64,000 nucleotides of DNA from an uncultured Pseudomonadales bacterium (GTDB lineage: Bacteria > Pseudomonadota > Gammaproteobacteria > Pseudomonadales > Pseudohongiellaceae): NCBI GenBank assembly GCA_943789485.1, contig CALSUH010000002.1:1-64000 (forward strand), in the 5' to 3' direction. Position 1 is the stretch's first letter. Each line of letters begins with the position of its first letter. The notes below the pieces were generated by a model. That model saw only the letters and a program-made list of their open reading frames with translations, ran no database searches and was not told the DNA's origin. Position numbers and translations under genes: made by a program. Below are positions 13,985 to 52,204 of the stretch, one piece after another.

Positions 13985-14204
13985 TTTTGGTGGGGCGGGG
14001 GGCTGACCTTTTCCCCAAACCTCGAGTCAATCTGACTAGATTCCAGGGTGTGTTCGCCCCTAACAGCAAACATCGGGCTTTGATCACTCCCGCAGGCAGG
14101 GGCAAGGGGAGTAAGCAGGCTAGTAAGGATGAGGATGATCGCAGCTTCAGCGAGCGCCACGCAGCGATGACCTGGGCCCAGCTTGAAACGTGTATTACGC
14201 TTCT

Positions 14205-14572
14205 TCTGCAGGAATACATCAACTACTTCACCGTCTTGAGCAACCGCTCTCCATAGATAATATTGCTTACTCTGGATCTTCACAAAGCCTTCATCGATGA
14301 AGATCGTATCACCGTAGCCTTGATGCTTTCGCCTTAACCTGGGAGCAAATTGAGGTCCGAACTTGCTGTACCATAGGCGAATTGCTTCATAGCTCACCTC
14401 AATTCCGCGCTCGGCCATCAAATCTTCAATATCTCGATGACTAAGATTGAATCGGTGGTAGAGCCAAACGGCGTATCGGATGATTTCAGATGGGAGTCGG
14501 TGGCGCTTATATATCGATTTTGATGAGTTAATGGCACAATTATCGCTCAAGGCGAGTTAATTTTTCAGTACC
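14205..14572 (-). pseudogene. Truncated IS6-family-like transposase
   Basis: N-terminal part (RHRLPSEIIRYAVWLYHRFNLSHRDIEDLMAERGIEVSYEAIRLWYSKFGPQFAPRLRRKHQGYGDT) closely matches the intact copy at 46516-47211; similarity is lost after VDVFLQKK. Outer end ggtactgaaaaattaactcgcc (revcomp, ending 14572) resembles the intact copy's terminal repeat. Confidence 0.85.
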
Positions 14573-17838: not shown

Positions 17839-17978
17839 ATTTCTTCTCTGCGTACCTGCTACGTCCCGTCTATTCGTCTAGCCATCCGCCTAGTTTTTCA
17901 ATGTATTTCGCGTGTTGCGGGGGCTGGCTATTCTGTCACCGCTCCGTAATCCTACTGGATAATGGCATTTTTCAATAG

Positions 17979-18072
17979 AATAAAAAGGAATAAAAAGGAA
18001 TAAAAAGGGGTCAGGGCACGAATACAGTACTGTATTTTTACTCTGGCCCCAATTAGTAACCCCAATTAGTAA
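17979..18072. repeat. GGGGTCAG...CTGGCCCC palindromic element with stepped edges
   Basis: gaataaaaag repeated three times ending in aaaaaggggtcagggcacgaatacagtactgtatttttactctggccccaattagtaa, then a second ccccaattagtaa. Confidence 0.7.
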
Positions 18073-18194: not shown

Positions 18195-19631
18195 ATGAAC
18201 ACTACACCAAAATTTTGCAAAAATTACGAATCACTTCTTGATAACCATTTCGAAAGTATCTTAAAAAATGATCAACTTTCTATTCCCGGGTTTGTCGTAT
18301 TAGCCAAACGGGGTGAGGAGGTTTACCACAAGGCTTTTGGTGTTAGTGACTTGAAGTCAGGAAAAGCCATGCAGACTGATTCAATGTTTAGAATGTATAG
18401 TATGACTAAAGTACTAACGAGTTTTGTCGCGTTAAGGCTTTACGAAGAGGAGCTTTTTAATTTCGACGACCCAGTAAGTAAATTTATTCCGTCCTTTGAT
18501 CGCTCTTGGGAGATAGTGGTGGATAGTGCTGATGGAGCAGAAACTATTGATTACAAAAGTATCCTTACCGGCGAAAATTTAAATTTGGGTTTTAATAGAA
18601 AGAAATCAGAAAAACCAATGCTGATCAAACATTTAATGAGCGAATCGGCTGGCATTGAGTATGATTTATTTTCTGAATATGACTCTCTTTTTGGTGGCGG
18701 AGTGTGTGATAGAAATGCAGGATTGGTCGCGAATGCCTTGAGGCAAAAATTACATCCGGAAGTGTATCGCAGCTCATCGATTTTAGGCGCCAATTTATCC
18801 CTTCGAGATTTTGTAGATATTATTGGCAATGCTGGGGTTTTAACATGCGAACCGGGTGAGTTTTCGTATGGTCATGGCGCGACTGTCCTCGGGCGAATAA
18901 TAGAAATACTTTATGAAAGAAGCCGAGGAGAGTTCAAGAAGTTTTCCGAAATTATGTCCGAGCTTTTATTTGAGCCTCTAGATATGAATGATGCGGCATT
19001 TTTCCTTGCGGACGATGATCGGAGAATAGATCGGATACCAACTCTTTATGGTGCGCTCTTAGACGAGAGCGGGTTATCTACTAAAATAGCAGAAGAGCAG
19101 GAATGCTACCCTGAAGGAACGAAATATGTGACGAACCAAACAGCACATTTTTCTGGACCTAGACTCTATGAGAGTGGAGATACGGGCACAATCATGACCG
19201 CCCATGATTATTCCAAATTCTACGACATGCTTCTTCATGGCGGATTATCCAAAAAAGGAGAGCGCCTGTTGAGCGAACAAGGTATTGCGACCTTGTGTAA
19301 GGGGCGATTCGAAAACCTTCAATTGAATACCTCTCTAGCTAAATCATTTGGGGTAGCGGGTGATGATAGCCCGTTCCCGAAATCATTCAATTTCGGTTGG
19401 GCAACCGCGCATGGAGATGGCCGTACTTTACAAGAGTATAAAACGAGCGACCATAGTGATATGAGTCACTGGGGAGGCTACGCGCTGACCCAAGGTTTTT
19501 TCTATCCAACAGAGCGATCCTACATGCTGGTCTGTCCACAAATGATGTCAACAACCCCAGGTGCTTTTGCTTTTGGCCAAACCTTAATTCGTGACATGTC
19601 AATGTCAGTGTTCCACAGCGTTTGGAATTGA
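18195..19631 (+). CDS. Serine hydrolase (beta-lactamase family)
   Basis: 478 aa; MFRMYSMTKVLTSFVALRLYEE SxxK motif, FSYGHGATVLGRIIE. Confidence 0.9.
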   Translation: MNTTPKFCKNYESLLDNHFESILKNDQLSIPGFVVLAKRGEEVYHKAFGVSDLKSGKAMQTDSMFRMYSMTKVLTSFVALRLYEEELFNFDDPVSKFIPSFDRSWEIVVDSADGAETIDYKSILTGENLNLGFNRKKSEKPMLIKHLMSESAGIEYDLFSEYDSLFGGGVCDRNAGLVANALRQKLHPEVYRSSSILGANLSLRDFVDIIGNAGVLTCEPGEFSYGHGATVLGRIIEILYERSRGEFKKFSEIMSELLFEPLDMNDAAFFLADDDRRIDRIPTLYGALLDESGLSTKIAEEQECYPEGTKYVTNQTAHFSGPRLYESGDTGTIMTAHDYSKFYDMLLHGGLSKKGERLLSEQGIATLCKGRFENLQLNTSLAKSFGVAGDDSPFPKSFNFGWATAHGDGRTLQEYKTSDHSDMSHWGGYALTQGFFYPTERSYMLVCPQMMSTTPGAFAFGQTLIRDMSMSVFHSVWN

Positions 19632-19744
19632 TATAAGTAGGGACACTAACAACTTAACAATTTAAGTCCAACTCATAGCATTTGATTACTGTAATCAAGA
19701 AACCGCCTCGATCTGTTAAGTTGTTATCTTGTTAGTGTCCCCTT
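19632..19744. repeat. GGGACAC palindromic element (family A), single copy
   Basis: taagtagggacactaacaacttaacaatttaag...gattactgtaatc...ctgttaagttgttatcttgttagtgtcccc; long terminal inverted repeats. Confidence 0.85.
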
Positions 19745-19829
19745 GTCCGAGTGTGCGTCCTTAATTACTTGATTCTGGAAACTTTAAGCACTATCGTGAT
19801 CTCTCCATTCGGCATTATCGGAGCATGCT

Positions 19830-22800: not shown

Positions 22801-22998
22801 AGTGAGTAAGTAGGGACACTAAAGTGAGTAAGTAGGGACACTAACAATTTAACAATTTAACAACTTAAATCTAACCCATAGCATTTGAGTAAGTAGGGAC
22901 ACTAACAATTTAACAACTTAAATCTAACCCCTAGCATTCGATTACTGTAATCAAGAAGCCACCTCGATCTGTTAAGTTGTTATCTTTTTAGTGTCCCC
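22801..22998. repeat. Family A element preceded by two 5'-anchored partial copies (staircase)
   Basis: agtgagtaagtagggacactaa (22801-22822), then agtgagtaagtagggacactaac...catagcattt (22823-22886), then full copy gagtaagtaggg...gtgtcccc (22887-22998). Confidence 0.85.
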
Positions 22999-23010
22999 TA
23001 GTCCGCCCTC

Positions 23011-25668: not shown

Positions 25669-26307
25669 ATGATGAAGCCGTTGAAGATTGGCTTACTGGT
25701 AGTCGGCGTCCTCATGGTGGGGACACTTTTGACGCTGCGCGTGACCGGGCTGGCGCCAGGACATCCCAGTGCCGAGGAATACCTCAATGCCAGCCGGTCG
25801 GCCAGGCCAGGATTGTGGTTGGCGGGGGAGGTTGTTCATGAGGCGGTGACGAATTGGGACTGGGTCGACCAGTACAGCGACGCCTTCAGCCAGAACGCCA
25901 CCGAGCTTGAGACTCGTACCTGGTACGGCATCCCCCACTCCGTCACGGTCCTACTGGTTCCGCGTGGAGACAAACTCTACCTGCAGTCGAGTGCGCAAAC
26001 ATTCAGATTGAACAAAGAGTTCCCATACGGCAAGGCGTGGTGGAGGAACGTCGAGCGAGATCCACGTGTGCGCCTGAAGATTGGCGGAAAGATCTACGAA
26101 ATGACTGTGGCATTGATCCAAGACCGGGCCGAGGTTGCTCGATTGCGAGGGGGGAGAGACGCTCTTGTGAAAGAGATGGCTGACGGTGGGAACGAATACA
26201 TCACTGAGGAGTGGCACTATTGGCGCGTTTACCAGAGAAACGTGCCGGAATATGGCACAGGGGCTGCGGTTGCGGCATCCGACTCAGAAACTCCCCGCGC
26301 CCAATAG
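25669..26307 (+). CDS. Membrane-anchored hypothetical protein, possibly flavin/F420 split-barrel fold
   Basis: 212 aa, N-terminal TM segment; TVLLVPRGDKLYLQSS...WWRNVERDPRVRLKIGGKIYE pattern. Confidence 0.6.
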   Translation: MMKPLKIGLLVVGVLMVGTLLTLRVTGLAPGHPSAEEYLNASRSARPGLWLAGEVVHEAVTNWDWVDQYSDAFSQNATELETRTWYGIPHSVTVLLVPRGDKLYLQSSAQTFRLNKEFPYGKAWWRNVERDPRVRLKIGGKIYEMTVALIQDRAEVARLRGGRDALVKEMADGGNEYITEEWHYWRVYQRNVPEYGTGAAVAASDSETPRAQ

Positions 26308-26324: not shown

Positions 26325-26676
26325 AGATATAAGTAGGGACACTAACAATTTAACAACTTAAGTCGAACCCATAGCATCGGATTACTGTAATCAAGAAGTC
26401 ACCCCGATCTGTTAAGTTGTTAAATTGTTAGAGATATAAGTAGGGACACTAACAATTTAACAACTTAAGTCGAACCCATAGCATCGGATTACTGTAATCA
26501 AGAAGTCACCCCGATCTGTTAAGTTGTTAAATTGTTAGTGTCCCCTTGAGCGCCCTAGCGCCAGAAGTCACCCCGATCTGTTAAGTTGTTAAATTGTTAG
26601 TGTCCCCTTGAGCGGAGGTATTCAAGTTGTTAAATTGTTAGTGTCCCCTTGAGGTAATTGTTAGTGTCCCCTTGAG
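26325..26676. repeat. Family A array: near-full copy, full copy and three 3'-anchored truncations
   Basis: Copies at 26325-26431, 26432-26550, 26563-26612, 26624-26653 and 26656-26676; the last four all end ...attgttagtgtccccttgag. Confidence 0.9.
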
Positions 26677-26683
26677 GTATTCG

Positions 26684-28258
26684 CTAGCTCAAGGGCGTAT
26701 CGTCATAGATCACAACGCCGTTAAGTTCTACCCTTGCTGCATCGCTGGGATTTAACAATCTGACGTCAACCCTGTGCTGTCCTACCGGCAGTTGGTATTT
26801 CCAGAACAAATAGAATCGCCTCTTGGTGAATTGGGTCGGCAAAATAGCAGTTTCAACTAATTCTCCGTCAACATAGAGTTCTGCGTCGAATACATACTCG
26901 GCCTCACCTTCGGCCAAAGCGGTGCCTAACAAGGCAAAGCCATTACCCTCGAAGTCGAAACTATAATCGTCTTGCAAGTCAATGGGCTGGCCTCCCACTA
27001 TCAGTGATCGTCTCTCCTTCGCGTAGTGCCCCTCGAAAGCCACTTCCAATGCCACCGTTCGAGGTTCTTGTATGGAAATTGTTATGCTCTCATCACTTAC
27101 CGTGCCACCGCCTCGTTGGATTAACTCCAAGGCGTGTCTATAGGACATATCATAGGCATCGTTTAGAGAAATAGTCGTATAGGCGAAGTCCAAGGCTTCA
27201 ATATCCGCTAGACCCTGTTTCCAGAATACCGGAATAGCGTCGTAGCCGTAAATCGTTCCCAATATGCCAGCTGCAGAAGCCGGATTGCAGTCTGCATCAT
27301 CTCCGGCTCGCGTAGCAATTTCCATGGTTCGGGAGAAATCACCATCGCCATACAGCAGGCCTAGAACAACCCATGCGGCATTGATTTTGGCGTCAATATT
27401 GAATGATGCAAGCATGCCCAGCGGCCCAAGATCAGTATTAGCCCATCGTTCGTTGATAGCCTGCCAGGCAAACTTCCAATCCTCTGAGTTCTCTTCATGC
27501 AGAGCAATCATGTCCGCGATAATCTTGTAGAAGTCACTCTCTTCAGGAATTACAGTAAGGGCTTCATTAATGATCGCCTCTATATCATCGTTAATGAACG
27601 CCAAAGAGTACATGGAGGCGATAAACACTCCGCCGTACCAGCCATCACCGTAGTTCATGATATGACCGACTCTGTCACTGATATCCACTGCGGTGTTAAC
27701 CATGCCCGGGGCCATGATACCGGCGAAATCAGCCTCGATCTGAAAATCGATATCGTCAGCAGCCGGATTGTTTGTCCAGTGGCCTGATTGCGGCGGGCTA
27801 ATGCCATTTAGCACGTTGTAGCGGGCTATCTGGTTGGCGAACCAGAGGCTGTAATCAGCGTTCGCGAATGAGTCGGCGAGAGATTGCGTAGAGGCATCTA
27901 AGCCCTCATCTTCAAACACTTGGACGAAGGAGAGGTCCATATATATGTCGTCATAGACACCCGGTGTCTCTTCGAAGGTTTTCTGCAGATAACCATCGTA
28001 CCAGGGCAGGTCATAATCATCGGGAACTCTTTCACTGTTGAATTTGAACTCCACCGGGAAACCGTAGGTTACGCCGATGGTCTGTGCGGCCCATGCACCT
28101 TTGATTTTGTCTTTAAGAGCCTCAGGTGAAATAGTTACTATGCTCTCTGCGGAAAGCGCTGGCATGGAAAGCAGGAATAAGCCTAGAGAGGTAAATAGCG
28201 CGGTAAATAGAGCAGTAAGTTGTATACCAATTGTCTTTGTTCTTTTCTTGGTAGTCAC
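26684..28258 (-). CDS. ADP-ribosylglycohydrolase family protein, exported
   Basis: 524 aa, signal peptide; IKGAWAAQTIGVTYG, YDDIYMDLSFV, ATRAGDDADCNPASAAGILGTIYGYDAIP. Confidence 0.85.
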   Translation of the reverse strand: MTTKKRTKTIGIQLTALFTALFTSLGLFLLSMPALSAESIVTISPEALKDKIKGAWAAQTIGVTYGFPVEFKFNSERVPDDYDLPWYDGYLQKTFEETPGVYDDIYMDLSFVQVFEDEGLDASTQSLADSFANADYSLWFANQIARYNVLNGISPPQSGHWTNNPAADDIDFQIEADFAGIMAPGMVNTAVDISDRVGHIMNYGDGWYGGVFIASMYSLAFINDDIEAIINEALTVIPEESDFYKIIADMIALHEENSEDWKFAWQAINERWANTDLGPLGMLASFNIDAKINAAWVVLGLLYGDGDFSRTMEIATRAGDDADCNPASAAGILGTIYGYDAIPVFWKQGLADIEALDFAYTTISLNDAYDMSYRHALELIQRGGGTVSDESITISIQEPRTVALEVAFEGHYAKERRSLIVGGQPIDLQDDYSFDFEGNGFALLGTALAEGEAEYVFDAELYVDGELVETAILPTQFTKRRFYLFWKYQLPVGQHRVDVRLLNPSDAARVELNGVVIYDDTPLS

Positions 28259-36020: not shown

Positions 36021-36107
36021 GCGGTAAGTAGGCGGTAAGTAGGGACACTAACAATTTAACAACTTAAGTCTAACCCACAGCATTCGGTTACTGTAATCAA
36101 GAATTCA
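36021..36107. repeat. Family A element, 3'-truncated, with an 11 bp 5' step
   Basis: gcggtaagtag repeated twice, the second continuing as gcggtaagtagggacactaacaatttaacaacttaagtc...gttactgtaatcaagaattcaccc. Confidence 0.8.
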
Positions 36108-36283
36108 CCCTGGACTTCCCAGCCTTTACTAGACCCTGGGCTTCCCACGATTCATAGACAACTTCAAGCCTCTTGGAGCAAGAATTCCTTGTTTGCTCTT
36201 TTAGGGGCAATAAATCACTTGAAAGCACTATTAACTACTACCATAATAGTAATATATCAAATTTTGTAGATATAAATAATACA

Positions 36284-38090: not shown

Positions 38091-38176
38091 GGAAAAAATG
38101 GGACAGACCACGGTTCTTTTGAGAAGTCTAAGCCCCGGCAAACCCAATCGTTTAAACGTGGCCTGTCCCCGGTTTT
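38091..38176. repeat. Family B palindromic repeat, copy 1
   Basis: ggaaaaaatgggacagaccacggttcttttgagaagtctaagccccggcaaacccaatcgtttaaacgtggcctgtccccggttttc; near-identical to 44879-44964. Confidence 0.85.
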
Positions 38177-38317
38177 CGTATATTATTCGACCAGGCAGAC
38201 CTTCGCGAGATGATATAGAAAACCCAATATGGCGGGCGCAGCAGAGTCTGCAACTGAGTAATACAAACAGTGAGGAACTATTGGAAGCTGTAGGGGAGTT
38301 GTAGTCTAGTGGTATGG

Positions 38318-44801: not shown

Positions 44802-44878
44802 CGGATTTAATTAAAATACAAAACTCTGATAACAAGGGGTAAATATTTTTGGCCTATTACCGAGATTAACATACCGCG

Positions 44879-44964
44879 GAAAAACAGGGACAGACCACGG
44901 TTCTTTTGAGAAGTCTAAGCCCGGGGAAACCCAATCGTTTAAACGTGGTCTGTCCCCGGTTTTC
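44879..44964. repeat. Family B palindromic repeat, copy 2
   Basis: ggaaaaacagggacagaccacggttcttttgagaagtctaagcccggggaaacccaatcgtttaaacgtggtctgtccccggttttc. Confidence 0.85.
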
Positions 44965-46474: not shown

Positions 46475-47263
46475 GGTACTGACAAGTTAAGCGCCAATCT
46501 GTCAGGATCTATCTCATGACTCAACCAAAAATGTACCAACGACACAGATTCCCACCTGAAATCATACAATATGCCGTGTGGCTGTACCATCGATTCAATC
46601 TAAGTCATCGTGACATCGAAGATTTGATGGCCGAGCGGGGCGTCACCGTCAGCTATGAAGCGATTCGACTTTGGTGCAATAAGTTCGGCCCTCAATTTGC
46701 GCGTAGGTTACGACGAAAGCACCAAGGCTACGGCGACACCTTCTTCATCGATGAAGTCTTTGTGAAGATCCAAGGTAAGCAGCATTATCTGTGGAGAGCA
46801 GTGGACCAGGACGGAGAAGTGGTTGATGTATTCCTACAGAAACGACGTGATGGAAAGGCCGCGAAACGCTTCTTTAAGCGACTATTGAAGAATCACAAGG
46901 GAGAGCCGAGGAAGATTGTCACTGACAAATTGAGAAGCTATAACGTGGCGCACAGGGAACTGATTCCTGAAACGATTCACGATACAACCCAGTATGCCAA
47001 TAATCGAGCTGAGCTATCGCACGAATCGACGAGAGTCAGAGAGCGGGGCATGCGTAAGTTTAAATCAATGCGGCAAGCACAGCGGTTTTTGAGTGCGCAT
47101 GCAGCGGTGTACAATTTGTTCAATCTTGGGCGGCATTTAGTGTCAGCTGAGAACTATCGTTTCTTTAGACGGCGAGCCTTCGCGTCTTGGGAAAAGGCAG
47201 CGGGAATATAGAAGCTGCTACGTACTAGATTTTCAGAGCGGGAATAGTTAATTTGTCAGTACC
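46475..47263 (+). mobile_element. IS6-family-like insertion sequence
   Basis: Terminal inverted repeats ggtactgacaagttaa (46475-46490) and ttaatttgtcagtacc (47248-47263) bracket the transposase; flanking 8-mers (aattagac / cacccccg) do not match. Confidence 0.88.
46516..47211 (+). CDS. IS6-family-like DDE transposase
   Basis: 231 aa; RHRFPPEIIQYAVWLYHRFNLSHRDIEDLMAERGV; FIDEVFVKI, VTDKLRSY DDE segments. Confidence 0.93.
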   Translation: MTQPKMYQRHRFPPEIIQYAVWLYHRFNLSHRDIEDLMAERGVTVSYEAIRLWCNKFGPQFARRLRRKHQGYGDTFFIDEVFVKIQGKQHYLWRAVDQDGEVVDVFLQKRRDGKAAKRFFKRLLKNHKGEPRKIVTDKLRSYNVAHRELIPETIHDTTQYANNRAELSHESTRVRERGMRKFKSMRQAQRFLSAHAAVYNLFNLGRHLVSAENYRFFRRRAFASWEKAAGI

Positions 47264-50161: not shown

Positions 50162-50400
50162 CGGAGTAAGTAGGGACACTAACAATTTAACAACTTAAGT
50201 CTAACTCATAGCATTCGGTTACTGTAATCAAGAAGCCACCTCGATCTGTTAAGTAGTTATCTTGTTAGTATTCCCTTGAGGTATTGCAGCTCGAAATCCT
50301 CAGAAACAGTCATAAAAAACCCAGCACAAGTGCTGGGTTTTTTATTTGGTGGAGGCGGGGAGGATTTGCGACCCACATCCCTGTGGGTCGTCCTGCGGAC
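50162..50400. repeat. 239 bp direct repeat, left copy (family A element + terminator + tmRNA 3'-end-like segment)
   Basis: cggagtaagtaggg...tgtgggtcgtcctgcggac; appears identical to 51966-52204 on line-by-line reading (offset 1804). Confidence 0.95.
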
Positions 50401-51823: not shown

Positions 51824-51965
51824 GCTTTATCTCTTTTAGTCACGGGATCATAGGGACACTAACAATTTAACAACTTAGTGCTGTTCAAGCATAGTGCCCC
51901 TTTATGCGCCATGGGCTCATTGTCATTTACGTTGCCGAAGAACCGTACACGGGATCATAGGGACA

Positions 51966-52204
51966 CGGAGTAAGTAGGGACACTAACAATTTAACAACTT
52001 AAGTCTAACTCATAGCATTCGGTTACTGTAATCAAGAAGCCACCTCGATCTGTTAAGTAGTTATCTTGTTAGTATTCCCTTGAGGTATTGCAGCTCGAAA
52101 TCCTCAGAAACAGTCATAAAAAACCCAGCACAAGTGCTGGGTTTTTTATTTGGTGGAGGCGGGGAGGATTTGCGACCCACATCCCTGTGGGTCGTCCTGC
52201 GGAC
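51966..52204. repeat. 239 bp direct repeat, right copy
   Basis: See 50162-50400. Confidence 0.95.
52118..52147. terminator. Rho-independent terminator-like hairpin (also at 50314-50343)
   Basis: aaaaaacccagcacaagtgctgggtttttt. Confidence 0.85.

Follow-up and report, generated by a model that had tools for sequence, protein, structure and literature searches.

Tandem duplications straddling the edges of a TIR-MITE in an uncultured Pseudohongiellaceae bacterium

How does a short palindromic element come to stand between two genes in five versions, a full copy preceded by a near-full one and followed by three right-end pieces (50, 30 and 21 bp), that agree wherever they overlap? Such an array occupies positions 26325-26676 of the stretch of DNA analysed here (the window), 64,000 nucleotides from contig C2 of an uncultured Pseudomonadales bacterium. 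Re-examination of the sequence bears out all the array coordinates given in a preliminary description. Genome-wide statements in this study are based on searches and sampled stretches of a 3.67-Mb, 84%-complete assembly in 32 contigs. The array and its flanking genes are laid out as follows.

25669-26307, plus strand: upstream gene with a weak F420H2_quin_red match, its stop 18 bp before the array start
26325-26431, plus strand: left-edge tandem duplication, a 107-bp unit made of 11 nt outside the GGG foot and 96 nt of element; exact copy of 26432-26538
26432-26550, plus strand: full TIR-MITE copy
26443-26468, plus strand: hairpin left arm GGGACACTAACAATTTAACAACTTAA
26519-26544, plus strand: hairpin right arm TTAAGTTGTTAAATTGTTAGTGTCCC
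26551-26562, plus strand: 12-bp spacer cgccctagcgcc, of which the present flank holds no direct copy
26563-26612, plus strand: right-edge piece of 50 bp, 44 nt inside the CCC foot
26613-26623, plus strand: 11-bp spacer cggaggtattc, whose gtattc repeats the flank following the array
26624-26653, plus strand: right-edge piece of 30 bp, 24 nt inside the foot
26654-26655, plus strand: 2-bp spacer gt, a copy of the flank's first two bases
26656-26676, plus strand: right-edge piece of 21 bp (15 nt of it inside the foot), which together with flank makes up one unit of a 23-bp exact tandem repeat
26684-28258, minus strand: downstream convergent gene, ADP-ribosylglycohydrolase, its end 8 bp past the array

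Over their shared length the pieces show no differences from the full copy at 26432-26550, and the shortest is one copy in an exact 23-bp tandem duplication (AATTGTTAGTGTCCCCTTGAGGT twice). The spacers had been called non-matching; this holds for cgccctagcgcc and fails for gt and for the gtattc of cggaggtattc, which are copies of the following flank, gtattcgctagc. The position right after the upstream gene's stop (26307) appears to be an insertion hot spot, where three relatives carry other TIR-like repeats of GGGTCAG types (L103, L105, L109).

The repeated unit is a dispersed terminal-inverted-repeat (TIR) MITE of 118 bp that forms a hairpin. The full copy of the array folds into one hairpin (26443-26544) with 26-nt arms that are 100% complementary, at a DNA folding energy of -27.9 kcal/mol compared with -7.35 +/- 2.14 in shuffles (z -9.6). 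Across 13 full copies, the conserved region reaches beyond the feet, by 6 nt ahead of GGG (TAAGTA) and by 7 nt past CCC (CTTGTCC). Matches to the terminal 13-mer TTGTTAGTGTCCC number 20 in the window at up to two mismatches, where 1.35 are expected, and 68 in the genome at up to one mismatch, against 3 for the reversed pattern. Further elements in the window include copies of this MITE and one member of another TIR family.

17978-18072, unstranded: MITE of another TIR family, GGGGTCAG...CTGGCCCC, with duplications at both edges (GAATAAAAAG three times, CCCCAATTAGTAA twice)
19630-19748, plus strand: full copy of the array's MITE, without edge duplication
22801-23003, plus strand: full copy with left-edge pieces
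36021-36110, plus strand: copy without right end, with a left-edge 11-bp duplication GCGGTAAGTAG
50163-50280, plus strand: full copy
51847-52084, plus strand: full copy with left-edge pieces

Orientation is uniform within a cluster, all elements being plus in the window and minus at 254-262 kb of contig C11. An integron attC site was considered on that account, and the link between the TIRs and a transposase, set out below, proved the better explanation. An Rfam search of the element gave no match near gathering score to a known structured RNA, and a PDB sequence search returned nothing useful. Two larger repeats also occur in the window: a 239-bp stretch comprising an element and a terminator-like hairpin is duplicated at 100% identity (50162-50400 and 51966-52204), and a 311-nt inverted repeat pair is 82% complementary (14204-14514 and 46531-46841).

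Are the short pieces separate arrivals or local copies? The array pieces match the neighbouring full copy at 106/106, 50/50, 30/30 and 21/21 positions, while their best scores against 12 other full copies are 87, 40, 26 and 17. A piece at 257 kb of C11 also fits its neighbour best (39 vs 35). Repeated aborted insertion of new copies beside an old one, as the preliminary description suggested, draws some support from C11 261.9 kb, where two outer left pieces score slightly higher against other C11 copies than against the adjacent full copy (44 vs 41; 45 vs 42). This difference arises because the adjacent copy has lost one base, so the locus does not discriminate. Locus-specific flank is, moreover, repeated together with the end piece: GGGCGGGATAGGGGACACTAAC twice on C10, CGGTAATTGGG twice on C12, GGAAGGACAAGGGGGCAC... 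twice on C11, and, at one C5 element duplicated at both ends, ATCTAGAAGGGGACACT twice and CCCCTGCCTCAT twice. Because the pieces best match their neighbour and carry repeated local flank, we conclude that the staircase does not reflect separate aborted insertions, an origin that we regard as very improbable.

The extra copies are instead direct tandem copies, made locally, of ~7-11 nt outside the TIR foot together with a variable length of element. Such duplications occur at either end and recur in several TIR families and species. A systematic scan of this genome and its relatives yielded 46 junctions, and 51 with more loci and a looser foot, a few of the latter being spurious, among them a coding repeat in L225 and one locus, C11 261.9 kb, that was counted twice. 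With one mismatch allowed, the outer extent of units of at least 20 bp has a median of 9 nt outside the foot (IQR 8-11), and the spread of outer extents is about 5 to 14 nt. Outer breakpoints fall at, or a few nucleotides beyond, the conserved terminus (-6 / +7), with no clear base consensus, as opposed to the C|T cut of TnpAREP. The inner extent, again for units of at least 20 bp, has a median of 20.5 nt and a range of 2-96 nt, and inner breakpoints cluster at ~10 nt and at 23-29 nt, the latter being the end of the arm. Random placement of breakpoints along the unit is rejected (KS p 3e-4 for units of at least 20 bp; 5e-6 for at least 30 bp). Junctions are mostly exact or carry 1-5 nt of filler, with little microhomology.

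Edge anchoring, the property that first set the array apart, recurs across the genome, and truncated copies with random ends are for that reason not the outcome we observed. Its one clear exception is a copy split by an IS3-family insertion (C11 259.6/260.9 kb). Internal truncation as a rule was rejected, since the halves at C11 259.6 and 260.9 kb arise from this insertion; the IS3-type insertion sequence itself occupies L031 6698-7925 (C11 259.7-260.9 kb). Nor is nesting a peculiarity of the right end, as it had seemed from the array: left-end series stand at 22801-22890 of the window, near 261.9 kb of C11 and in a relative (G008).

Why, then, do the pieces shrink outwards? It had been argued that ordinary tandem duplication cannot give edge-anchored nested copies, which is wrong, as a unit crossing the edge yields exactly such copies. 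A duplication from the outermost copy cannot exceed that copy without repeating the spacer, so successive events on the outside form a falling series; the pieces become ever shorter because each unit is copied from the preceding, already short, piece. No special nesting process is needed for the staircase. Where events fall at an inner edge, this order can be broken; the C11 261.9 kb series, for one, runs about 36, 39, 2 and 10 nt, then full. We reconstruct the history of the array as four events, one on the left with 96 nt of inner extent and three on the right with 44, 24 and 15 nt.

Comparisons beyond this locus show how widely the pattern extends. Of the family's 137 genomes, 7 contain the pattern GGGACACTA-N4-34-GGGACACTA, with 34 matches in all against one for the reversed control; 18 of the 34 lie in G128, whose TIR is related, and one in G024, a single-contig 6.6-Mb genome. 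Edge duplication was also found in two or three other TIR families, in two of which TIRs flank the family's own Y1 gene, and edge duplications occur at GGGACAGACC and GGGACAGCTA feet (L215). The window carries two GGGACAGACC...GGTCTGTCCC TIR elements (38091-38177 and 44878-44964), and a Y1 gene with the same TIRs is located on contig C10 (L045). Among short tandem duplications in 1.26 Mb of the genome, 10 of 48 touch a TIR foot (1.8 expected, p = 1e-5), or 5 of 41 when the window is removed (1.3 expected, p = 0.009); neither sample was blind, the window being given and contigs C5 and C7 being known to hold copies. The corresponding count in 400 kb of further stretches is 0 of 22, and the excess therefore stems from element-holding regions. 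An assembly artefact might be suspected in a 32-contig, 84%-complete assembly. Equal structures in several genomes, including the single contig of G024, spacers and flanks that are specific to each locus, and the shortness of most duplicated units (8-42 bp) make this hardly credible.

Close relatives differ in their edge pieces. In G008, which is 95-99% identical in the compared stretches, the orthologue of the C12 25.2 kb copy bears an extra left piece, GTAAGTAGGGACACTAACAATTG, that is absent from this genome (G000); the set of edge pieces thus shifts even among closely related genomes. A search of relatives for a clean empty site orthologous to the window locus found none. Orthologues of the upstream gene (81-94% identical) and of the downstream gene (about 67-73%) have different neighbours, so the junction at the window locus is a synteny break. 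Two stretches conserved in G008 end exactly at element edges of this genome, with ~630 bp of other G008 DNA at one of them; insertion replacing target DNA was considered here and gave nothing firm.

Which enzyme might act on these ends? A Y1 transposase gene on contig C5 (L036) is flanked by the MITE's own TIRs, and the dispersed non-coding copies carry these same terminal repeats (68 end copies). Its ORF (L036 661-1683) matches the Y1_Tnp (HUH) domain PF01797 at 41.4 bits (cut-off 23) and contains SNHYHLLV, VFQNRY and YIHLNP, corresponding to the NH[YF]H, FQ and Y[IV]HLNP (Y-motif) signatures in Table 1 of PMC6006769. A C-terminal HTH is recognized by HTH_23 at 28.7 bits, over its cut-off, with HTH_28 and Bac_DnaA_C below theirs. 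TIRs of TIRYT / TnpAY1 subclass 2.1 fit GGGGWSAS (PMC3733652, PMC6006769), as does the right end of this gene, GGGGACAC, and its left end, AGGGACAC, is one base off. By these sequence features the transposase fits TIRYT / TnpAY1 subclass 2.1 and, given the shared ends, is the putative mobilizer of the MITE. It does not reach the NCBIfam NF047646 equivalog cut-off for RAYT sensu stricto (69.3 vs 80 bits). A second MAG, which bears the label SAR86 cluster bacterium NORP90, encodes an 88%-identical transposase with the same TIRs. The left end of the C5 gene has a diverged partial duplication of ~94 bp reaching into the ORF start (L036 506-600), whose outer piece seems to resemble the adjacent ORF less than it does the NORP90 gene (L171). 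Among the genome's other Y1 genes, two are bracketed by GGGGTCAG or GGGGACAGACC repeats and a further two have such a motif on one side.

TIR-MITEs and TIR families with Y1 transposases are already known. TIRtrons and TIRYT with dispersed TIR families were described by Di Nocera et al. 2013 (PMC3733652), and TnpAY1 subclass 2.1 by Quentin et al. 2018 (PMC6006769), who found its genes to have no REP-like sequences beside them. The system here shares with them a Y1 transposase with a C-terminal HTH and flanking TIRs of the GGGGWSAS type, and the moderate abundance of TIR families, often in dimers or clusters. It differs in its terminus-anchored partial copies, which are absent from the descriptions in both papers. 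REP and REPIN elements with RAYT (TnpAREP) are also short palindromes, dispersed by an enzyme of the Y1 class, and tandem reiteration of REP clusters along with segments of the flanking DNA has been reported (PMC3733652). The present element, however, has long TIR arms, as against the 20-40 bp of a REP, and its transposase lies below the NCBIfam RAYT cut-off. Its feet lack a conserved unpaired GTAG (or GTGG) tag on both sides: the left foot is often AAGTAGGG, the right foot is CAAGGGG, and the feet of related families are CAAGGGG or GCAGGGG. A limited literature search found no account in which partial duplication anchored at the terminus is treated as a general, quantified signature, and no biochemistry or mapped cut site for subclass 2.1 enzymes.

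Two features suggest a cut made by an enzyme: the outer breakpoint hardly varies and lies at the terminus or just beyond it, and microhomology is scarce. Cleavage by HUH enzymes yields a 5'-phosphotyrosine and a 3'-OH. For TnpAREP, a 5'P-Tyr link resolved by the 3'-OH of an added oligonucleotide has been described (PMC8266576). We propose that the TIR-MITE, likely mobilized by TIRYT, is duplicated across its edges when a transposase cut at the terminus is joined to a nearby 3' end, an account to which we give about an even chance. In this account the transposase would cut a single strand close to the end of the element, about 8-10 nt on the 5' side of the hairpin foot, so that the resulting 5'-phosphotyrosine would lie at an almost constant position. 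This 5' end would then be joined to a 3'-OH that had advanced a variable distance into the same element, belonging either to a nascent strand halted in the hairpin or to a polymerase-extended nicked flank, and the stretch from cut to halt would be duplicated. The outer, fixed breakpoint would mark the cut and the inner, variable breakpoint the halt, and repeated events at the outermost copy would produce progressively shorter pieces. Cutting beside a hairpin and joining a 5'-phosphotyrosine to a 3'-OH would resemble HUH strand transfer by TnpAREP (PMC8266576) and IS200/IS605, a likeness that belongs to our proposal and contrasts with the absence of a C|T consensus at the breakpoints here. The classical excision and insertion cycle alone would not yield partial tandem copies. 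In favor of the proposal, a Y1 transposase and matching TIRs coexist in this genome and in a relative, and edge duplications also mark families with other TIRs, including the two that bracket a Y1 gene of their own. Against it, the ~5-14 nt spread of outer extents is wider than a strict cut site, the 12-bp spacer in the array does not suit a simple copy of the flank, and G128, rich in edge duplications at a related TIR, has no match to this transposase at E<=1e-30.

Slippage or template switching could produce edge duplications with no transposase, if the hairpin stalls the fork and the nascent end, expelled from the arm, restarts just before the foot. The great stability of the hairpin and the placing of inner breakpoints at ~10 nt and at the arm end accord with this, as does the expansion in some copies of an 8-bp unit of the arm, AACAACTT, a sign of slippage. 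There is little microhomology, however, between the restart point and the halted end, and the restart point would lie ~9 nt beyond the foot, rather than at the foot itself, in flanks that are otherwise unrelated. We hold slippage or template switching, the latter already named in the preliminary description, to be a possible but less probable origin. One copy carries the arm unit at ~11 copies, apparently via slippage (L031 1067-1160, C11 254.1 kb).

Alternatively, a break at the element terminus could be repaired by limited copying from the sister followed by end joining. The product would be identical and the 1-5 nt fillers are in keeping with it, but the process requires both a double-strand break and end joining, and we judge it improbable. 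It is a form of the incomplete gap repair after excision that was originally suggested, of which this much survives: limited copying from a terminal break would fit, whereas clean excision followed by gap repair would leave the flank unrepeated.

Returning to the transposase cut, we raise as a speculative and rather doubtful extension that edge-straddling duplication is a by-product of the way TIRYT elements multiply. The enzyme would join the 3' ends of stalled forks to its own 5'-linked terminus in a fork-coupled, replicative mode, and the duplications would map its cut site.

Our data bear on the spread of REP-like and TIR-like elements together with Y1 transposases. Edge duplication accounts for end-truncated copies that resemble failed insertions, and its recurrence with a nearly fixed outer breakpoint predicts both the cut position of the enzyme and its joining partner. 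If true, the fork-coupled reading would mean that a class of domesticated HUH transposases acts in a replicative manner.
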